This document shows, piece by piece, positions 3 through 64,000 of a DNA stretch of 64,000 bases. How positions within the stretch are numbered: the first letter of the stretch is position 1; every line of letters begins with the position of its first letter. The stretch is from Pedobacter ureilyticus. Lineage in GTDB: Bacteria; Bacteroidota; Bacteroidia; Sphingobacteriales; Sphingobacteriaceae. Below the pieces are notes generated by a model. That model made no database searches. It was not told where the DNA came from and saw only the letters and a program-made list of their open reading frames with translations. Both the position numbers and the translations under genes were made by a program. Location: assembly GCF_005925345.1 (NCBI RefSeq), contig NZ_SSHJ01000010.1:62001-126000 (forward strand), read 5' to 3'.

Positions 3-746
3 TCTGACGTACACTATGTAACATTTGCGCCAGATACCACCAAAATTGTGGATTACAGGTTAAAATATGGCAATAGTGCCTTACTACTTCCCACTAAGAG
101 TTATTTATTTTACAAGCCCATAGTGGCCATTCCGGCCGGCAGCAATGTTTCTGAAGCAGCGGTGCTTAACCTTAGTTTCCAAACTACTTTAAGACCACTT
201 AGTACTTACGTGCTGCCTTTAACGATTACTTCTGTTGATGGAAAGCCGCAAGATCCTGTAAAAAGAAGAGTAGTGTATTACGTTTTCAATACTGGCGAAG
301 CACTATATGTAGATCATACCGGCTACGCACCTACCGCTACGGCATCTTCAACTGCAGGTTCAAATGCAGCCAGCAGAGCCATAGACGCAAACACAGGCGG
401 AACCTACTGGGCCAGCGCCACAACTGCAGCTTTGCCACAATGGCTCAACATTGATTATGGCCGCAACGTTACCTTTTCTGGTTTAGATTACTTCTTCCCA
501 ACTGCGGTAACCCCAGCTGTTGGAGGTTATACTACCTCTGCTAAAATAGAAACCAGTACAGATAACACCAATTGGACCGATAGAGGAACCTATGCGATAG
601 ACGTTAATAACGCAGCTAAAAAGCAAACATTAAATTTACCCGCACCAGCTACTGGTAGATATGTGCGCTTTACTATTTTGGCTGCCACACCATACTCTAA
701 TACGTTTAGCATTGGCTTTGTGGCTGGCATTCTACTTAGGAATTAA
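3..746 (+). CDS. DUF1735 / F5-8 type C (discoidin) surface lipoprotein, 5' truncated
   Basis: The reading frame is open to the left edge, so the gene starts outside the window; the GTG at 48 is only an internal valine codon. The first ~80 visible residues fit the end of a DUF1735-type beta-sandwich, with the motif IPAGSN followed by a run ending in YVLPLTI, typical of the N-terminal half of surface lipoproteins encoded near SusC/SusD pairs. Residues ~100-232 form a galactose-binding-like F5/8 type C fold (ATASSTAGSNAASRAIDAN near its start, TGRYVRFTI near its end), which in this setting usually binds glycan. No catalytic domain is visible in the part present. It probably closes a SusCD operon lying to the left. 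The next gene starts 32 bases downstream. The family call is by motif recognition; the exact glycan is unknown. Confidence 0.8.
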   Translation, partial: SDVHYVTFAPDTTKIVDYRLKYGNSALLLPTKSYLFYKPIVAIPAGSNVSEAAVLNLSFQTTLRPLSTYVLPLTITSVDGKPQDPVKRRVVYYVFNTGEALYVDHTGYAPTATASSTAGSNAASRAIDANTGGTYWASATTAALPQWLNIDYGRNVTFSGLDYFFPTAVTPAVGGYTTSAKIETSTDNTNWTDRGTYAIDVNNAAKKQTLNLPAPATGRYVRFTILAATPYSNTFSIGFVAGILLRN

Positions 747-55622: not shown

Positions 55623-57524
55623 ATGGCTAAAACTGTATTGCATGTTTGCACTTTCCTGTTATTTCTTATCTGCAACTTCTTTTGCTCGGTTTCACATGCC
55701 CAAAAAGTAGTAGAGATAACTGATGATCTGGATCAACACATCTTCAATTTTTCGGAAATAGAGGTTTTAGAAGATCCCAAAGCACAATTCACTTTTGAAC
55801 AGGTCAGCAGTGCTCCGTTCGCTAGTAAATTTAAACCAAGCATAAAAAGCACACCTCAAACTGCAAATTTCAACACCACTTATTGGTATAAAATCAATAT
55901 CAAGCATAATAGCAATGCAGAAAATAGATTCTTGCTTGAACTTTTCGACCAAACGATAGATCATCTTACTATTTACGTTCCTAACAACAATGGAGACTAC
56001 GAAGTAAAAGAATTAGGTGATCGATTACAGTTCAAACATCGAGACCTATCTCACAAGAATTTCGAAATTTATATCGATAACGACCATAACGAGATCCAAA
56101 CCTATTACTTTAAAATACAGTCTTCGCAAATAGCTGATGTAATTATTGTGCTCAGGTCTGTAAACTGGTTCATTTCTTATGCACTAGACGAATATTTCTA
56201 TTTTGGAATATTTTACGGCATGATCTTGGTTTTCAGTTTTTATAACCTAATCATGTACATCGCCATACGGCAGAAACAATATTTGTTTTATGTGCTATAT
56301 AACTTAAGCGTAGGTTTATTTGAGATGAGCTCAGACGGTATTGCCTATCAGTATCTGTGGCCAAATTCGCCCAATTGGAACCAAATTGCTTATGCCTTTT
56401 TTCTATATGCCACCAGTATTTTTGCACTTTTATTTACCAGAGAACTACTCTTTGTAAAAGCTAAAGCCCCTAAGCTTAACCAAGTAATTATTGCTGTTAT
56501 TGCTGCTAGATCTTTATTTTTCTTGTATTGTTTATTTTTAGACCAAGAATTATTTAGCTACAAGTTTTTGGAGTTTGTGCCTTTAACGGTTGCTTTTTTT
56601 ACTGGAATTTATATTTTTAAGCGGGGTTACCAGCCTGCTCGTTTCTTTGTTTTAGGCTACAGCTTTTTATTTTTTGGCTTTACACTCAAATTTTTGATCA
56701 TGTTAGGTATAGCATGGTTAAACTTTGGTGTAATTACTTATTACAGCTTAAGCTTTTGTTTTGTATTAGAAATGGTTTTCTTGTCTTTTGCCATTGGCGA
56801 TAAAGTACGTATCCTTAAACAGAAAAAGGAAAAAGCACAGCGGCAAATAATCCAACAAATGAGTGTAAATGCTAAACTTAAAGATAAGCTAAATCAGGAG
56901 TTGGAGGTACAGGTACAGGAACGTACAAAAGAAGTTTTTAATAAATCGATAATTATCGAGACCCAAAATGAGGAATTGCTGCGAGCTAACGAACAACTGA
57001 AACAGCAAGCTGAAGAAATCTCAAGAATGAATGTGCTCTTGGAGCAAGACAATCAAGAGCTACAGACCAACGTAGAAAAAATCACCAGAGATCGGGTAAT
57101 GTCTGCAGACGTGGATTTCGAAGAGTTTAGTAAAATCTATCCTGATAAGGAAAGCTGTGATAGTTTTTTGGCCGATCTAAAATGGAGAAATGGCTATACT
57201 TGTAAGAAATGTAAGAATGATCATTTCTACGCTGGGCATACACCTTATAGTAGGCGTTGTAGTAAATGCGACTATGATGAATCGGTAACGAGTTACACCA
57301 TTTTTCATAACACACGCATTCCCATCAATAAAGCATTTTACATGATTTTCCTTATTTACTCTACCAAAGGTAAAATCTCTTCTCATAAGCTTGCCGAGCT
57401 GTTAAACATTAGGCAAAGTACCTGTTGGACTTACGGAACGCGGGTAAAAACGGTGATGGAAGAACGAAAATCTATCCTTAAAAAATCAAACAAAAACGGT
57501 TGGAGCTTATTAGTTTTAGATTAA
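55623..57524 (+). CDS. 7TM-DISM receptor fused to IS1595-type transposase zinc-ribbon/HTH domain
   Basis: A 633-residue fusion. Residues 1-27: signal peptide (ends SHAQ). Residues ~28-180: periplasmic 7TMR-DISMED2-like beta-sandwich (TTYWYKINIKHN). Residues ~190-400: seven transmembrane helices of the 7TM-DISM type (FGIFYGMILVFSFYNLIMYI starts the first). Residues ~400-495: coiled coil, where such receptors usually carry a kinase, cyclase or LuxR domain. Residues ~500-633: the N-terminal module of IS1595-family transposases: DFEEFSKIYPDKESC, zinc ribbon with Cys527/530 (YTCKKCK) and Cys546/549 (RRCSKCDY), then SVTSYTIFHNTRIPINKAFY and a helix-turn-helix (KISSHKLAELLNIRQSTCW). The DDE catalytic domain is missing; the protein ends naturally. 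Likely a membrane-bound DNA-binding regulator of the SusC/SusD/GH3 locus that begins 265 bases downstream. Confidence 0.85.
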   Translation: MAKTVLHVCTFLLFLICNFFCSVSHAQKVVEITDDLDQHIFNFSEIEVLEDPKAQFTFEQVSSAPFASKFKPSIKSTPQTANFNTTYWYKINIKHNSNAENRFLLELFDQTIDHLTIYVPNNNGDYEVKELGDRLQFKHRDLSHKNFEIYIDNDHNEIQTYYFKIQSSQIADVIIVLRSVNWFISYALDEYFYFGIFYGMILVFSFYNLIMYIAIRQKQYLFYVLYNLSVGLFEMSSDGIAYQYLWPNSPNWNQIAYAFFLYATSIFALLFTRELLFVKAKAPKLNQVIIAVIAARSLFFLYCLFLDQELFSYKFLEFVPLTVAFFTGIYIFKRGYQPARFFVLGYSFLFFGFTLKFLIMLGIAWLNFGVITYYSLSFCFVLEMVFLSFAIGDKVRILKQKKEKAQRQIIQQMSVNAKLKDKLNQELEVQVQERTKEVFNKSIIIETQNEELLRANEQLKQQAEEISRMNVLLEQDNQELQTNVEKITRDRVMSADVDFEEFSKIYPDKESCDSFLADLKWRNGYTCKKCKNDHFYAGHTPYSRRCSKCDYDESVTSYTIFHNTRIPINKAFYMIFLIYSTKGKISSHKLAELLNIRQSTCWTYGTRVKTVMEERKSILKKSNKNGWSLLVLD

Positions 57525-57572: not shown

Positions 57573-57682
57573 AAGGTGCTCAAGCGTATCAACCTAGCTA
57601 ACTAATCTCCTTTTTAAACAACCTTTATGTGCTGAAAATCAGCATTAAGCAAGACTAGCTAGCAAGGTGCTATAGCGTATCA
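57573..57682 (+). promoter_or_regulatory. Paired AAGGTGCTnnAGCGTATCA sites upstream of the second SusC gene
   Basis: Two direct repeats, 57573-57592 and 57664-57683, agree at 18 of 20 positions and share the core AGCGTATCA. The cores start 208 and 117 bases before the SusC ATG. A similar pair precedes the GH3 gene at nearly the same distances. The probable core promoter lies further down (TAACTTTA at 57754-57761, with TTG 21 bases before it). Confidence 0.55.
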
Positions 57683-57789
57683 AAAAAGTTATAAATGCTT
57701 GTTTTACAGTATTTTATGAAAAATTTCACTTGCATTTAACATACAAATGAACTTAACTTTACCATCGCTAAATATTAACTGTAAAAAAG

Positions 57790-60702
57790 ATGAACAAAAA
57801 AATTACACTACTAGCGGCGTGTATTTTTAGTTTCATGAGTTATGTCATGGGACAAGAGATTACAATCGCAGGTCAAGTAAAAGATCAACAAGGTCTGCCT
57901 CTACCAGGGGTTTCAGTGAGAGTTAAGGGCACTAGTCTTGGGGCATCAACAGAAGCAAATGGAGCTTATAAGTTGAAAGCAAAAGCCGATGCCATACTTA
58001 CTTTTTCATTTATAGGTTTCAAAACTATTGAGCAGCCTATCAACAACAGAACTACCATTAACGTAACACTTGCCGAAGACGACAACAAACTTAACGAGGT
58101 TGTGGTAGTTGGGTACGGTACAACCACCAAGAAGGATTTAACTACTGCCGTTGTTTCTGTATCAGCAAAGGATTTAGAAAATCAACCCATTACCAATCCG
58201 TTACAAGCCATACAAGGTAGAGCTGCGGGGGTACAAGTAACATCTCAATCTGGTAAACCAGGATCTGGGATAGCCATCAGCATTCGTGGTAATACCTCCA
58301 TTACGGCTTCTAACAGTCCCTTATATGTAATTGATGGGGTTACTTCTCGAGATGCTAGTTTCTTAAATGCCAACGACATCGAAACGATGACCATTTTAAA
58401 AGATGCATCTGCTGCAGCTATTTATGGTTCTAGCGGTGCTAATGGGGTGGTTTTAATTACAACCAAGAAAGGTTCTGCTAATAAGGTACAAGTGGGATTC
58501 AATGCTTTTACCGGTTTTTCTAACTTTTGGCAAACTCAAGATGTGCTGAATAGAGACCAATACATTGCTTTGATGACCGAATTGGGTTATAGTAGTTTTG
58601 GTGGCAGCGAAAATACAGACTGGCAAGAAGAAACATTTGGTACAGGAACTCAAAACCAGTATCAAGTATCACTATCTGGCGGTGTAAAAGGTGGTCAATA
58701 CTATTTCTCTACTGGTTATCAACAAGATAAAGGGGTAGTAGCTCCAGCAAAGTTAGATCGCATTACCGCTAACTTTAATGGTTCTCAAAACCTAACCCCT
58801 TGGCTAAAATTAACGGGTAACGCCATTCTTACTTCAAGCAAATCTATTGATGTTGGCGATAACAGTAGCGTATCTCGTGGGGGTGTTATTTTAGGGGCAT
58901 TAACCACGCCTCCAACAATTGGTATTTTTGAACCTAATGGCCAGTACACCACTATTCCAAACGCTGGCGGGTGGGACAATCCATTGGCCTTAGCTTTTGG
59001 TTCTAATAACTTAAACCGAAATTTTAGATTTATTGGTGCATTTGGTGCGCAGGTGAATTTCACTAAAGATTTGTACTTTAAATCTACCATTAGTACTAAT
59101 TCCAATAAGAATTTCTATCGCTACTTTACCGATAACTTTTTAACCACTTACGGACGTCAAGAGCGTGGTGTTTATCGTGATAACACTACTAATGATCATG
59201 TTTGGCTAAACGAAAACATCTTAAACTACACCAAAAACGTGGGTAAAAATGCGTTTACGGCAACGGGAGGTTACACCATACAAGCGTCAGATTGGAAGTA
59301 CAACAACAATGAACTTACCCGATTTTTCGATACCTCTGGCAATCCAATAGAGCCTTCGGTAGCATTAACCCTTCCTCAGCGTGCGCAATGGAGCAAACGC
59401 TCTTACTTGGCTCGTATTACTTATGCTTACGATAATAAATACCTTTTCAGTTCTAACTTTAGGGCCGATGGTTCTTCTAGGTTTGCGAAGGAAAATCGTT
59501 TCGGTTACTTCCCTTCTGTATCTGCTGGATGGAGAATTTCTGCTGAGAACTTTATGAAAGATAGCAAAAGCATTAATGATTTGAAACTTCGTGGAAGCTG
59601 GGGTAAAGTAGGTAACGATGAAGGAATTGGAGACTACGCTTACATGAAATTATACAGCATAAATGCCCAAGGTGATTATAACTTGCAAAACCCAGCCAAT
59701 GATGATTTATCGTGGGAAAAAACCACGCAGACCAACATTGGTTTAGACTTAACCATGTTTAACAACCGCTTAACTTTTACTGCCGATGCTTATTTAAAGA
59801 AAACTAACGACCTATTAATTAACGTACAATTAGCTCCGTCTTCTACTTTCAGTAGCCAGGCCTATAATGTAGGTGCAATGGAAAATAGAGGTTTAGAATT
59901 TATGCTATCAACTAAGAATGTTGATCGTGAAAAATTCAAATGGACTACCGATCTTAATTTCTCACTTAACCGAAATAAAGTGACAAGTTTGGGTACCACC
60001 ACTCAATCTTTAGATTTTGCAGGTATTTACGAACGTGATGCAGCAGTTAGAATTGTCACTGGCCGCCCGTTGGGCAGTTTTTATGGGTATGTATTTACAG
60101 GTGTAAACCCGGCCACGGGAGCCGCTCAATATGCAGACACCAACAACAATGGCATTACAGGTTCGGCAGACCCTGCTGATAGAACTTTTATTGGTTCGGC
60201 ACAGCCTAATTTTACTTATGGTTTAACCAATAATTTAACTTTTGGCAACTGGAATTTCAACTTCTTTTTCCAAGGGGTGCAGGGTAACCAGTTATTTAAT
60301 GCTTCTAGAATTGACTTAGAAGGAATGTTCGATTCTAAAAATCAATCGGCTGCGGTGTTAGATAGATGGACTGCGCCAGGTCAAATTACAAATGTTCCTA
60401 AAGCTTTATTTCAAAGCTCAGAAAACTCTTTAACTTCTAGCCGCTTTGTAGAGGATGCTTCTTATTTGCGTTTAAAAACTGCAACCTTATCGTACAGCTT
60501 TGGTTCTGCCGCTTTAACTAAATTGAAGATGAGCAAGTTAACCTTGTTTGCTACGGGTTACAACATATTCACTTTTACCAAATACTCTGGTTTAGATCCA
60601 GAGGTAAATGTAAACTCGGCGAATGGCCCAGCTATGGGAGTTGATTACGGTACTTACCCACAATCAAGAAGTTTCTTGTTCGGTATTAATGTTGGATTTT
60701 AA
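57790..60702 (+). CDS. SusC/RagA TonB-dependent outer-membrane transporter (second glycan locus)
   Basis: A 970-residue protein with a signal peptide (ends VMGQ). The N-terminal carboxypeptidase-regulatory-like domain reads VKDQQGLPLPGVSVRVKGTS. The TonB plug begins near VVVVGYGTTTKKDLTTAVVS and includes PLYVIDGVTSRD and DASAAAIYGSSGANGVVLIT; the beta-barrel ends FLFGINVGF. It is shorter than the mannan-locus SusC (1057) and clearly a different subgroup. With the SusD gene 11 bases downstream it imports oligosaccharides. The following GH3 gene suggests beta-glucosidic cargo. Confidence 0.95.
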   Translation: MNKKITLLAACIFSFMSYVMGQEITIAGQVKDQQGLPLPGVSVRVKGTSLGASTEANGAYKLKAKADAILTFSFIGFKTIEQPINNRTTINVTLAEDDNKLNEVVVVGYGTTTKKDLTTAVVSVSAKDLENQPITNPLQAIQGRAAGVQVTSQSGKPGSGIAISIRGNTSITASNSPLYVIDGVTSRDASFLNANDIETMTILKDASAAAIYGSSGANGVVLITTKKGSANKVQVGFNAFTGFSNFWQTQDVLNRDQYIALMTELGYSSFGGSENTDWQEETFGTGTQNQYQVSLSGGVKGGQYYFSTGYQQDKGVVAPAKLDRITANFNGSQNLTPWLKLTGNAILTSSKSIDVGDNSSVSRGGVILGALTTPPTIGIFEPNGQYTTIPNAGGWDNPLALAFGSNNLNRNFRFIGAFGAQVNFTKDLYFKSTISTNSNKNFYRYFTDNFLTTYGRQERGVYRDNTTNDHVWLNENILNYTKNVGKNAFTATGGYTIQASDWKYNNNELTRFFDTSGNPIEPSVALTLPQRAQWSKRSYLARITYAYDNKYLFSSNFRADGSSRFAKENRFGYFPSVSAGWRISAENFMKDSKSINDLKLRGSWGKVGNDEGIGDYAYMKLYSINAQGDYNLQNPANDDLSWEKTTQTNIGLDLTMFNNRLTFTADAYLKKTNDLLINVQLAPSSTFSSQAYNVGAMENRGLEFMLSTKNVDREKFKWTTDLNFSLNRNKVTSLGTTTQSLDFAGIYERDAAVRIVTGRPLGSFYGYVFTGVNPATGAAQYADTNNNGITGSADPADRTFIGSAQPNFTYGLTNNLTFGNWNFNFFFQGVQGNQLFNASRIDLEGMFDSKNQSAAVLDRWTAPGQITNVPKALFQSSENSLTSSRFVEDASYLRLKTATLSYSFGSAALTKLKMSKLTLFATGYNIFTFTKYSGLDPEVNVNSANGPAMGVDYGTYPQSRSFLFGINVGF

Positions 60703-60713
60703 GATTTAAAGAG

Positions 60714-62129
60714 ATGAAACTAAATAAATATACTTTAGTAGCAATTGCAGCAGCGGCCTTTGGCTTGCAAAGCTGTAAAAAAGATTTCCTAGATAAACAG
60801 CCCTTTAACCAGGCAACTGCCGATGTGGCGTTTACTACCGCAGCTGGAGCCGAGAAACTGATGTCTGGGGTTTACGGTGGAATGTATAACGACTACCACA
60901 TTTGGGATTACATGATTAACGGCGATGTTACGGCAGATAATGCCTATGCTGGTGGCGATAATCCAGCAAATATTCAGATTGATTTATTTACCACTAACGC
61001 TACCAATGGAAACGTAGGACGCGATTGGGGCGGCTTGTACTCGAACATTAAAAATGCCAATGAAGTACTAGAAAATGTACCTAACATTCAGGATGCAGCT
61101 TTAGATGCAGGTGGCAGAAGAGCACAAATGATTGGAGAAGCAAAAGCGTTGAGAGCTTATTTCTATTTCCATTTGGTTCGTTTATGGGGGGCTGTGCCGC
61201 TGGTTCTAAAATCGCCTACTAGTTTAGAGGAAATGCAAAAACCACGTTCTACGGTAGATCAGGTTTATGCACAAATTATTAAAGATTTGGAAGAGGCCTT
61301 ACCAGATGTACGTACAACCGCTCCTAACAAGGGCTTCATTACCAAGGGTGTGGTAAATGCTTTATTGGCGAAGGTTTACGCCTCTAAGCCAACTCCAGAT
61401 TGGACAAAAGTAAACCAATATGCCGATGCAGTAATTGCTGGAGGCTATGCTCCCCTATCAAATTTTGACCATCTGTTTGATGGCGCACACAAGAATAACT
61501 CCGAATCTATTTGGGAAATGCAGTACGACGGGTGGGGTGGGCCCACTGGTCGTGGTAACTGGATGACAAGTGTAATTGTTGGTTCTGGCTGGAAACGTTT
61601 CTGTACGCCAACCAATGATTTGGTAGCAGCTTTTGATGCAGAAGGTGATGTGATCCGCAAGGCTTCTAGTATTTCATTTAAGAACGTTTCCACAGAAGGA
61701 TGGTCTGATGATTATTGGAGCAAGTCTAATTATCCATTCATCAATAAATACCGTAATGATGATTTGGCTAATTCTTACATTATTCGCTTAGCAGACATCA
61801 AATTGTTAAAAGCAGAAGCGTTGAATGAATTAACAGCAACCGGTTGGTCGGCAGCTAAAACCATTGTAGATGAAATTAGACTGCGTGTAAACTTGGGCGG
61901 CACACCAGCAAACAGTCAGGCGGCAATGCGTTTGGCCATAGAAAAAGAGCGCAGATTAGAACTCGCTTTCGAAGGCCACCGTTGGTTCGATTTGTTACGT
62001 ACCAATCGTGCTGTTGCAGTAATGAATGCACAAAGAGATGGTAATGGGGCATTGTTGTACAATATTTCTAATGCAAACTTGTTATTTCCAATTCCGCAAG
62101 CAGAGCGTGACCGCAACCCTAACTTATAG
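60714..62129 (+). CDS. SusD/RagB surface glycan-binding lipoprotein (second glycan locus)
   Basis: A 471-residue lipoprotein with lipobox Cys21 (FGLQSCKK). RagB/SusD signatures: GAEKLMSGVYGGMYNDYH near the N-terminus, IGEAKALRAYFYFHLVRLWG in the TPR region and IEKERRLELAFEGHRWFDLL near the C-terminus. It is the partner of the SusC protein encoded 11 bases upstream. A short hairpin (AGTATGGG, 62141-62148, with CCCATACT, 62159-62166) follows 12 bases after the stop and may reduce read-through into the GH3 gene. Confidence 0.95.
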   Translation: MKLNKYTLVAIAAAAFGLQSCKKDFLDKQPFNQATADVAFTTAAGAEKLMSGVYGGMYNDYHIWDYMINGDVTADNAYAGGDNPANIQIDLFTTNATNGNVGRDWGGLYSNIKNANEVLENVPNIQDAALDAGGRRAQMIGEAKALRAYFYFHLVRLWGAVPLVLKSPTSLEEMQKPRSTVDQVYAQIIKDLEEALPDVRTTAPNKGFITKGVVNALLAKVYASKPTPDWTKVNQYADAVIAGGYAPLSNFDHLFDGAHKNNSESIWEMQYDGWGGPTGRGNWMTSVIVGSGWKRFCTPTNDLVAAFDAEGDVIRKASSISFKNVSTEGWSDDYWSKSNYPFINKYRNDDLANSYIIRLADIKLLKAEALNELTATGWSAAKTIVDEIRLRVNLGGTPANSQAAMRLAIEKERRLELAFEGHRWFDLLRTNRAVAVMNAQRDGNGALLYNISNANLLFPIPQAERDRNPNL

Positions 62130-62166: not shown

Positions 62167-62194
62167 ACAATACTACTACAAGGCAATGTTTTTT

Positions 62195-62281
62195 AAGCGT
62201 ATTAGGAAATGTTTATTAAACGTTGAAAAGCTATTCTATAGCTTAATTTGGTCGGTTTTCGAAAGTGTTTTAAGCGTATCA
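62195..62281 (+). promoter_or_regulatory. Paired AAGCGTATYA sites upstream of the GH3 gene
   Basis: AAGCGTATTA at 62195-62204 and AAGCGTATCA at 62272-62281 begin 197 and 120 bases before the GH3 ATG. The pair before the SusC gene (208 and 117 bases) has the same core and nearly the same geometry, which suggests a shared regulator. Confidence 0.5.
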
Positions 62282-62391: not shown

Positions 62392-64000
62392 ATGAACATT
62401 AAAAATTTTAGTTTAGCGCTTGTTCTTGTTTTAGCCGGTACTTCCGTTTTTGCACAACAGAAAATGAGCAAAGAAGCTATCAATAAAAAAGTTGATGCGT
62501 TGCTAGCCAAAATGACCATTGAAGAAAAAGTAGGTCAAATGGCTCAAATTACTTTAGACGTAATTGGAAAAGGTAAAGATAGATACACTAGCGATGAGCC
62601 TTTTTCTTTAGATAAAAAAGAAACCGAAAAAGCTTTGCTACAATATCATATTGGTTCGGTGCTTAACACATCAAATAATAGGGCCAGAACTCCTCAGGTT
62701 TGGTACAACATCATCAACGAAATTCAAAATGTAGCCCTTAAACAAGGGAAAAATAAAATCCCCGTAATTTATGGAGTTGACGAAGTTCACGGTGCTACCT
62801 ACACTGCCGGTGCAACCATGTTCCCGCAACAGATTGGTCAGGCGGCAACTTTTAACCGAGCTTTGGTTAAAGAAGGAGCTAGCATCACTGCTTACGAAAC
62901 CCGTGCAAGTGCCATTCCTTGGAACTTCTCTCCTATTTTAGATTTAGGTGCCGATCCTCGTTTCCCTCGTCAATGGGAAAGTTTCGGAGAAGATCCATAT
63001 TTAGTTTCGCAATTAGGTGTACAAATGATTAAAGGTTTAGAAGGCGACGATAACGACGTTTCTAATCCTTTTAAAGTAGCTTCTTCTATCAAGCACTTTT
63101 TGGGCTATCAGGTTCCTGTTTCTGGTAAAGATAGAACGCCAGCCATCATTTCTGATCAAGCTTTGAGAGAATACCATTTGCCGGCTTTTAAAGCAGCGAT
63201 AGATGCTGGTGCAAAAACCATCATGATCAACTCTGGCCTAATCAATGGCGTGCCAGTGCATGCCAACTACAAAATACTGACCAGGTTATTGAGAGAAGAG
63301 TTAGGCTTTAAAGGCTTGGTAGTAACCGATTGGGGCGATATTGAAAATTTGCACAAACGAGATCGCGTAGCTAAAAACAATAAAGAAGCTGTAATGATGG
63401 CCATCAACGCAGGTATCGACATGTCGATGATTGCTTACAACTACGAGCCTTTCTGCGATGATTTAGTTGCTTTGGTGAAAGAAGGCAAGGTAAAGCAATC
63501 TCGCATTGATGATGCAGTAAGAAATATCTTAAAGGTTAAATATGAATTGGGTTTATTCGAAAAACCTGTGACACACATTAAAGATTATCCCAAGTTTGGA
63601 AGTAAAGAATTTGAAAATGCGGCTTATCAAACAGCGGCAGAATCGATCACTTTATTGAAGAATACGAACCATACTTTGCCTTTGAGTAAAACCGCAAAAG
63701 TTTTGGTTACTGGTCCAAACGCAAATTCGATGAGGACTTTAAATGGAGCTTGGACCTACTCATGGCAAGGCGAAAAAGTAGAAGAATTTGCCGCAAAATA
63801 CAATACCATTGTCAAAGCAATCCAAAACAAAGTCGGTGCAGCTAACGTAACTTATTTGCCCGGTGTAAGCTATAAAATGGATGGCAAATATTTCGAAGAT
63901 TTCGCTGACAAAATGGACGAAACCATCGCAGCAGCTAAAAATGCAGACGTAATTGTGCTTTGTTTAGGCGAAAACACTTACACAGAAACGCCGGGTAATT
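62392..64000 (+). CDS. GH3 beta-glucosidase (BglX-like), 3' truncated by window edge
   Basis: The frame opens at ATG 62392 and is still open at base 64000 (536 residues seen). It was found by direct translation. Signal peptide of ~22 residues (ends SVFAQ), so the enzyme is periplasmic. GH3 N-terminal domain features are clear: MTIEEKVGQMAQITLDVIGK, PVIYGVDEVHGATYTAGATM, FPRQWESFGEDPYLV, KHFLGYQVP, and the nucleophile Asp313 in LVVTDWGDIEN. The second domain starts near ESITLLKNTNHTLPLSK and holds the segment with LCLGENTYTETPG at the edge. BglX-like enzymes hydrolyse beta-glucosides, often laminari- or gentio-oligosaccharides. Its location behind SusCD suggests a beta-glucan or beta-glucoside locus continuing to the right. 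Confidence 0.95.
   Translation, partial: MNIKNFSLALVLVLAGTSVFAQQKMSKEAINKKVDALLAKMTIEEKVGQMAQITLDVIGKGKDRYTSDEPFSLDKKETEKALLQYHIGSVLNTSNNRARTPQVWYNIINEIQNVALKQGKNKIPVIYGVDEVHGATYTAGATMFPQQIGQAATFNRALVKEGASITAYETRASAIPWNFSPILDLGADPRFPRQWESFGEDPYLVSQLGVQMIKGLEGDDNDVSNPFKVASSIKHFLGYQVPVSGKDRTPAIISDQALREYHLPAFKAAIDAGAKTIMINSGLINGVPVHANYKILTRLLREELGFKGLVVTDWGDIENLHKRDRVAKNNKEAVMMAINAGIDMSMIAYNYEPFCDDLVALVKEGKVKQSRIDDAVRNILKVKYELGLFEKPVTHIKDYPKFGSKEFENAAYQTAAESITLLKNTNHTLPLSKTAKVLVTGPNANSMRTLNGAWTYSWQGEKVEEFAAKYNTIVKAIQNKVGAANVTYLPGVSYKMDGKYFEDFADKMDETIAAAKNADVIVLCLGENTYTETPGN

Follow-up and report, generated by a model that had tools for sequence, protein, structure and literature searches.

Within the 64,000 nucleotides of DNA of the soil bacterium Pedobacter ureilyticus analysed here (hereafter the window; positions 62,001 to 126,000 of contig NZ_SSHJ01000010.1, assembly GCF_005925345.1), a forward-strand gene at 55623..57524 is read as a single open reading frame (ORF) of 633 amino acids, without internal stop. 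It unites a DISMED2/seven-transmembrane (7TM) receptor, a long helix and the zinc-ribbon/helix-turn-helix (HTH) head of an IS1595 transposase. Behind it, after a gap of 265 bases, come genes for a SusC-like transporter, a SusD-like lipoprotein and a GH3 glycosidase, and GH30 follows GH3 outside the window. An earlier sequence-only reading had described the single frame and the 265-base gap correctly, and had taken the protein to be a membrane-tethered transcription factor of the SusC locus. Synteny, predicted fold and a conserved operator pair support that view; two of the three outcomes that it had named as refuting, homologues that never neighbour SusC and a fold unable to bind DNA, were checked, and both checks went in its favour. 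We put at roughly 0.83 the probability that the receptor is, as its sequence and genomic setting suggest, a one-component activator that is tethered to the membrane and acts on the glycan-utilisation locus next to it.

The receptor part has the periplasmic domain of the DISMED class (7TMR-DISMED2, PF07696, residues 45-177, E 7.1e-31) and the 7TM-DISM block (7TMR-DISM_7TM, PF07695, residues 190-394, E 3e-44); signal peptide and topology are read from hydropathy, model and homology only. At the other end lies what is found at the N-terminus of IS1595 transposases, a zinc ribbon followed by an HTH. The ribbon, Zn_ribbon_IS1595 (PF12760), is matched at residues 508-551 with E 2.1e-4 and 21.6 bits, under the 25.4 cut-off, and scores 26.4 bits in the genome-wide search. 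NCBIfam transpos_IS1595 (NF033547) is matched over only positions 1-56 of its 215, at residues 563-617. Its positions 57-215 find no counterpart before the ORF stops at residue 633, and the DDE domain PF12762 is unmatched up to E 1 in a Pfam scan of the whole protein, as had been claimed. By these profile matches the HTH of the IS1595 part is retained and the DDE domain absent. The four cysteines singled out in the sequence-only reading, C527, C530, C546 and C549, are invariant in alignments of 18 close and 26 diverse family members. The fold that it had left to structure prediction is confidently modelled for the C-terminal domain (mean predicted local distance difference test, pLDDT, 91.8): two helices, a zinc ribbon, a three-helix HTH and a tail. 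By Pfam and this predicted fold, sensor and DNA-binding domain thus share one membrane protein. The full-length model is weak (pLDDT 70.7), with a helix at 375-463 and values below 50 at 451-454 and 456-496. Structure searches with the C-terminal model returned generic HTH matches only, which excludes no family, and when solved structures were searched by sequence, none matched at E 0.01.

How widespread is such a fusion? A full-length search gave 1399 matches, with query coverage of 87-100% in the 120 listed; residues 495-633 gave 1163, and the 120 listed of these all have the 7TM-DISM Pfam domain. A one-genome-per-species scan gave 141 relatives, in Pedobacter, Mucilaginibacter, Chitinophaga, Dyadobacter, Siphonobacter and others; the best 80 of them are referred to below as the named loci. 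A profile of the C-terminal domain finds matches in 50 of the 151 genomes of the family and 51 of the 395 of the phylum, in frames of about 620-720 residues (the fusions), one of 1101, others of about 300 and shorter ones, and a matching frame of more than 600 residues is present in 40 of the 151 and 11 of the 395. Sequence comparison, then, has the receptor fusion as a conserved family. For its zinc-ribbon/HTH part, comparison with two relatives gives rates of non-synonymous change (dN) of 0.037 and 0.051, while the synonymous rate (dS) was returned as -1 and taken as saturation, hence no omega value; because dN is low where dS is taken as saturated, this part is, on the sequence comparison, under purifying selection.

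Do homologues also lie beside SusC genes, as the sequence-only reading asked? In 66 of the 80 named loci a SusC gene on the same strand begins 48-505 bp downstream; the exceptions, 14 in number, are L060, L072-L075, L078, L079, L082, L085-L087, L090, L092 and L093. In a second sample of 62 fusion genes (61 of the 7TM type, one of a propeller type described below), SusC is the next same-strand gene in 37, and for the rest there is SusC within 9 kb in 7, another same-strand gene in 13, an opposite-strand gene in 4 and a contig end in 1. The samples partly overlap (132 distinct receptors of 142). Pooled with the two genes of the own genome, they give a same-strand downstream SusC in 112 of 144 and GH30 in 91 of 144. 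A relative of one of ten reference glycan-protein kinds, on either strand between about 4 kb upstream and 9.5 kb downstream, is present in 144 of 144, a count without background control. Both fusions of the own genome precede SusC, the paralogue at C23 being followed by SusC, SusD, GH2 and GH88 genes. That genome has three further 7TM-DISM genes over cut-off, all histidine kinases beside response-regulator genes; none of the three has SusC downstream, though L099 has an opposite-strand SusC about 4 kb upstream. As there are 53 SusC genes over cut-off in the 4.98 Mb of that genome, we estimate chance adjacency of a receptor and SusC at near 1 in 100 genes. Upstream of the window receptor are genes for a short-chain dehydrogenase and a 153-residue protein without Pfam match. 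Two side observations concern the family: in two genomes (L124, L126) receptor-head genes occur as tandem pairs, 85 and 21 bp apart, and the L091 receptor, from a record titled Beijerinckiaceae, groups in the tree with Filimonas (Chitinophagaceae) and is probably from a mis-binned contig.

The leaders between receptor and SusC hold the same 17-mer, GGTATTNAAGCGTATCA, twice, as a direct repeat. In its strict form it occurs at least twice in 71 of 105 leaders, once in 13 and never in 21, the corresponding figure for shuffled leaders being 0-1 loci. Over 138 loci, the 900 bp 3' of receptors hold 160 copies, every one oriented like the receptor gene, whereas 2.42 Mb elsewhere hold 32. With a relaxed core, WNCGTATYR, 80 of 97 distinct leaders have a pair, 12 a single copy and 5 none (shuffled control for the pair: mean 0.01 of 105 loci, maximum 1). 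The spacing of the pair, before duplicate removal, is 87-94 bp in 82 of 88 and 76-79 bp in the other 6. Of the 151 family genomes, 10 have a strict pair, and each of these belongs to the 40 that have a fusion (reversed control, 0); of the 395 phylum genomes 1 has it, and this too is a receptor genome. Nine of the ten family pairs lie directly behind the receptor and the tenth 1.9 kb on, in G451 (the L113 locus), where insertion-like genes, IS3-like by eye, separate the receptor from SusC, next to which the pair remains. A pair is also present in L093 and L133, which have no SusC; there it lies between the receptor and the next glycosidase-like gene (GH30 locus). From these distributions the pair is probably the operator of the receptor.

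Pairs are also found at other places: before GH3 in L016 and before GH30 genes in L123 and L092. The candidate second pair before the window GH3 gene may be due to chance, since relaxed pairs as such are not above the reversed control in the own genome (6 versus 14). L100 was considered as an instance of an operator decoupled from its receptor, with a strict pair before SusC, behind two other genes; this was rejected, as a relaxed pair lies directly behind the receptor too, before the first glycosidase-like gene. As for autoregulation, a relaxed pair precedes no 7TM receptor gene and only the propeller gene of L121. Five leaders of distant receptors have no core (L101, L104, L105, L106, L108). 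Those of L104, L105 and L108 share, by eye, CGATTTCGGA, a possible alternative operator. That the operator is a relic of a transposon end is not supported: close insertion sequence (IS) copies whose left end is visible (L169, L170, L187, L188) share TAGAATAAGGCGYTT or nearly so, and about 8 of 17 positions match at the best offset by hand, which was judged not significant.

Table 1. Features of the receptor gene and the locus behind it, in window coordinates
Feature	Position	Strand	Basis
Receptor-regulator gene, 633 amino acids, 7TM-DISM receptor fused to IS1595 zinc-ribbon/HTH head	55623..57524	+	ORF, Pfam, NCBIfam, homologues
N-terminal hydrophobic segment before DISMED2, residues about 5-23			Hydropathy
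Periplasmic sensor domain 7TMR-DISMED2, residues 45-177	55755..56153	+	Pfam
7TM region, residues 190-394	56190..56804	+	Pfam; helices in predicted full-length model
Long helix, presumed coiled coil, residues 397-496	56811..57110	+	Predicted model; coiled-coil nature inferred
Zinc ribbon, residues 508-551, C527/C530/C546/C549, H539	57144..57275	+	Pfam, alignments, model, covariation
HTH of IS1595 head, residues 563-617, RQSTCW in recognition helix	57309..57473	+	NCBIfam, alignment, model
Operator 1 (predicted), GGTGCTCAAGCGTATCA	57575..57591	+	Motif search
Operator 2 (predicted), GGTGCTATAGCGTATCA, repeats operator 1 in the same direction at 91 bp	57666..57682	+	Motif search
Probable SusC promoter, Bacteroidota type: TTG 57730-57732, TAACTTT 57754-57760	57730..57760	+	Match to Bacteroidota promoter consensus
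SusC-like TonB-dependent transporter (Plug, CarboxypepD_reg, barrel)	57790..60702	+	Pfam
SusD-like lipoprotein	60714..62129	+	Pfam
Candidate second operator pair upstream of GH3: 62188-62204 and 62265-62281, 77 bp apart	62188..62281	+	Relaxed match
GH3 glycosidase, extends past window end	62392..64000	+	Pfam

Is the SusC promoter turned on or off from these sites? Bacteroidota promoters are of a type that differs from the sigma-70 consensus. Sites upstream of the -33 element are in the usual position for an activator, and it is there that both window operators lie; activation is favoured for this reason. Of the 80 leaders with a pair, 62 have a promoter-like -7 element at 79-81 or 90-92 bp from the second core, where shuffled sequences give 2.0 on average and at most 6; the distance to the start codon varies, in leaders of dissimilar SusC, from 25 to 408 bp. 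A repressor that holds the promoter off until ligand releases it would also have its operators in the SusC leader. However, with both sites upstream of the -33 element and the second at the preferred distances from the -7 element, we consider repression rather unlikely.

That the head itself reads the pair is suggested by covariation. In a set of 100 leaders with the core, 8 of them duplicates, H539 of the zinc ribbon is present in 83 of the 84 receptors whose leaders have GGT in the operator and in 2 of the 16 whose leaders do not. The zinc ribbon also holds the three top-scoring columns of residues 497-633, namely 547, 539 and 536. A tree built from residues 27-520 has 198 branches, with five changes of H539 and six of GGT, which coincide on one branch in four cases; the exceptions are L155, L080 and L134_9675. 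Receptors of one family with a clearly different HTH (L104, L106, L107, L108) have no pair. Of the two halves of the operator, CGTATC may be read by the HTH and GGT by the zinc ribbon. Could the pair instead belong to another regulator, the receptor signalling indirectly or being merely linked to the locus? Two observations count against direct reading and fit such an arrangement: of 144 receptor genes, 47 are followed by no intergenic pair over the first 900 bp, and a pair is missing also in L101 and L103, where most of the recognition helix is conserved; binding of operator by receptor is, besides, a prediction from sequence. However, all 11 genomes with a strict pair carry the receptor, and the GGT half and H539 change on the same branches. 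On balance direct, bipartite reading of DNA by the receptor head is supported by these comparisons, and we hold ownership by another regulator to be improbable.

Where did the head come from? Its profile finds IS1595 proteins of about 300 residues (best 3.3e-38), three of which (L170, L160, L164) pass the NCBIfam cut-off as IS1595 transposases and match DDE as well. As the profile leads to such transposases, the sub-threshold zinc-ribbon match is, at the level of sequence similarity, not due to chance. In a tree of heads rooted at midpoint, those of receptors form, with the short fragment L158, one supported side (95/81) with the IS1595 proteins outside it, the fork to the nearest IS groups being left open. 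We infer from this that the capture went from transposase to receptor. As for a donor, the best scores against the receptor head come from IS1595-like proteins of G162, but the branching among these, other IS proteins and the receptors is left open by the tree. G162 (L160-L168) has ten IS1595-like matches; the nine that were read are diverse and by eye lack the usual DDE motifs, and in two proteins the DDE profile match starts only at position 27 or 37. These proteins may be domesticated. Stand-alone zinc-ribbon/HTH proteins of about 155-200 residues without DDE (L198, L199, L201, L202, L203) occur in five genomes of one genus, where by eye the gene order is similar; they are perhaps a separate domestication, and for L198 the match to the IS1595 model covers just positions 1-72.

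The head is not confined to 7TM receptors. At L121:15898-19167, on the reverse strand, a protein of 1090 residues has a beta-propeller sensor (Reg_prop, Y_Y_Y) of the type known from hybrid two-component systems (HTCS) joined to the same IS1595 head, and an operator pair precedes both its gene and the gene after it. The propeller clade (100/96) is nested among the 7TM receptors. Two further clusters with propeller and head, from Desertivirga brevis and Daejeonella sp., were met among the 120 listed of 2066 matches, and one of the three propeller-head database clusters is identical to L121. This has a bearing on whether the main role of the protein is to hold the DNA of the locus at the membrane, without ligand-controlled transcription. 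A DNA-binding head on a 7TM protein could anchor DNA in any case, and some databases label homologues 'chromosome partitioning protein ParA', a label to which the domain scan lends no support. Sites at preferred distances from promoter elements and located at glycan genes, and the same head on an HTCS-type sensor, are not what a mere anchor would call for, and that reading seems to us very improbable. An insertion scar or annotation accident, with a chance transposase fragment, would be in keeping with a zinc-ribbon match below cut-off, but is refuted, as the sequence-only reading had anticipated, by full-length conservation in many genera, low dN and the single supported receptor-head clade.

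How, then, might a tethered activator work, if repression, indirect control and mere anchoring are the less likely options? A glycan fragment would bind the periplasmic DISMED2 domain. That domain is predicted to sense carbohydrates according to PMC8846402, which together with the GH3 and GH30 genes suggests a carbohydrate ligand. With GH3 and GH30 in the locus, the substrate here is, going by gene content, probably beta-1,6-glucan, and the ligand probably a beta-1,6-gluco-oligosaccharide. The signal would pass via the 7TM block and the long helix; receptors would dimerise through that helix, with their heads occupying the repeat pair. The head would act while still tethered, and would activate SusC/SusD, perhaps also GH3 via the second pair. 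A more elaborate picture, which we offer tentatively and think doubtful as a whole, is that a membrane-anchored dimer grips, with its two transposase heads, two asymmetric direct repeats about 8.7 helical turns apart in a small promoter loop at the membrane, controlled by periplasmic glycan, so that the transposase habit of holding two DNA ends is reused, with the head a portable module that has moved between 7TM and propeller sensors and has an H539-for-GGT code.

If the tethered activator is real, Bacteroidota glycan loci have an additional class of regulator, with its origin in a transposase head. The operator can be found in genomes, and predicts receptor-controlled glycan loci in Pedobacter, Mucilaginibacter, Chitinophaga, Dyadobacter and relatives; it also hints at the class of ligand of an orphan receptor family. 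A portable head with a covarying residue would, moreover, be a natural system in which to follow the evolution of a transposase domain into a transcription factor.

The open-access literature searched holds no paper on this architecture or operator, in agreement with the earlier statement that no regulator of this design had been described. The parts are known; their combination, the operator and the specificity covariation appear to be new. The Chitinophaga locus of PMC10449523 has an extracytoplasmic function (ECF)/anti-sigma pair; no STN domain is among the Pfam matches of the window SusC, which does not show the marks of ECF sigma/anti-sigma control. With HTCS the window receptor shares job and place, and the HTCS-type Reg_prop/Y_Y_Y sensor bears the same head in three database clusters, but histidine kinase, receiver and AraC HTH are absent from the Pfam matches of both the window protein and the 1090-residue propeller protein, and the window protein is thus not an HTCS. 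The known outputs of 7TMR-DISM receptors are kinases, cyclases, GGDEF and LuxR domains. The window protein has the sensor and 7TM block of their DISMED2 class by Pfam, whereas its output, the IS1595 zinc-ribbon/HTH head, was not found for them in the literature searched. With IS1595 transposases it has zinc ribbon and HTH in common, and differs in the absence of DDE, the fusion to a receptor, the conserved gene order and a head clade of its own. Closest in manner of working is the SusR type of polysaccharide utilisation locus regulator, a single inner-membrane protein at the susC locus that senses in the periplasm and binds DNA in the cytoplasm. Compared with SusR, both the sensor and the DNA-binding domain differ, and the window receptor has, as predicted from sequence, a defined direct-repeat operator.
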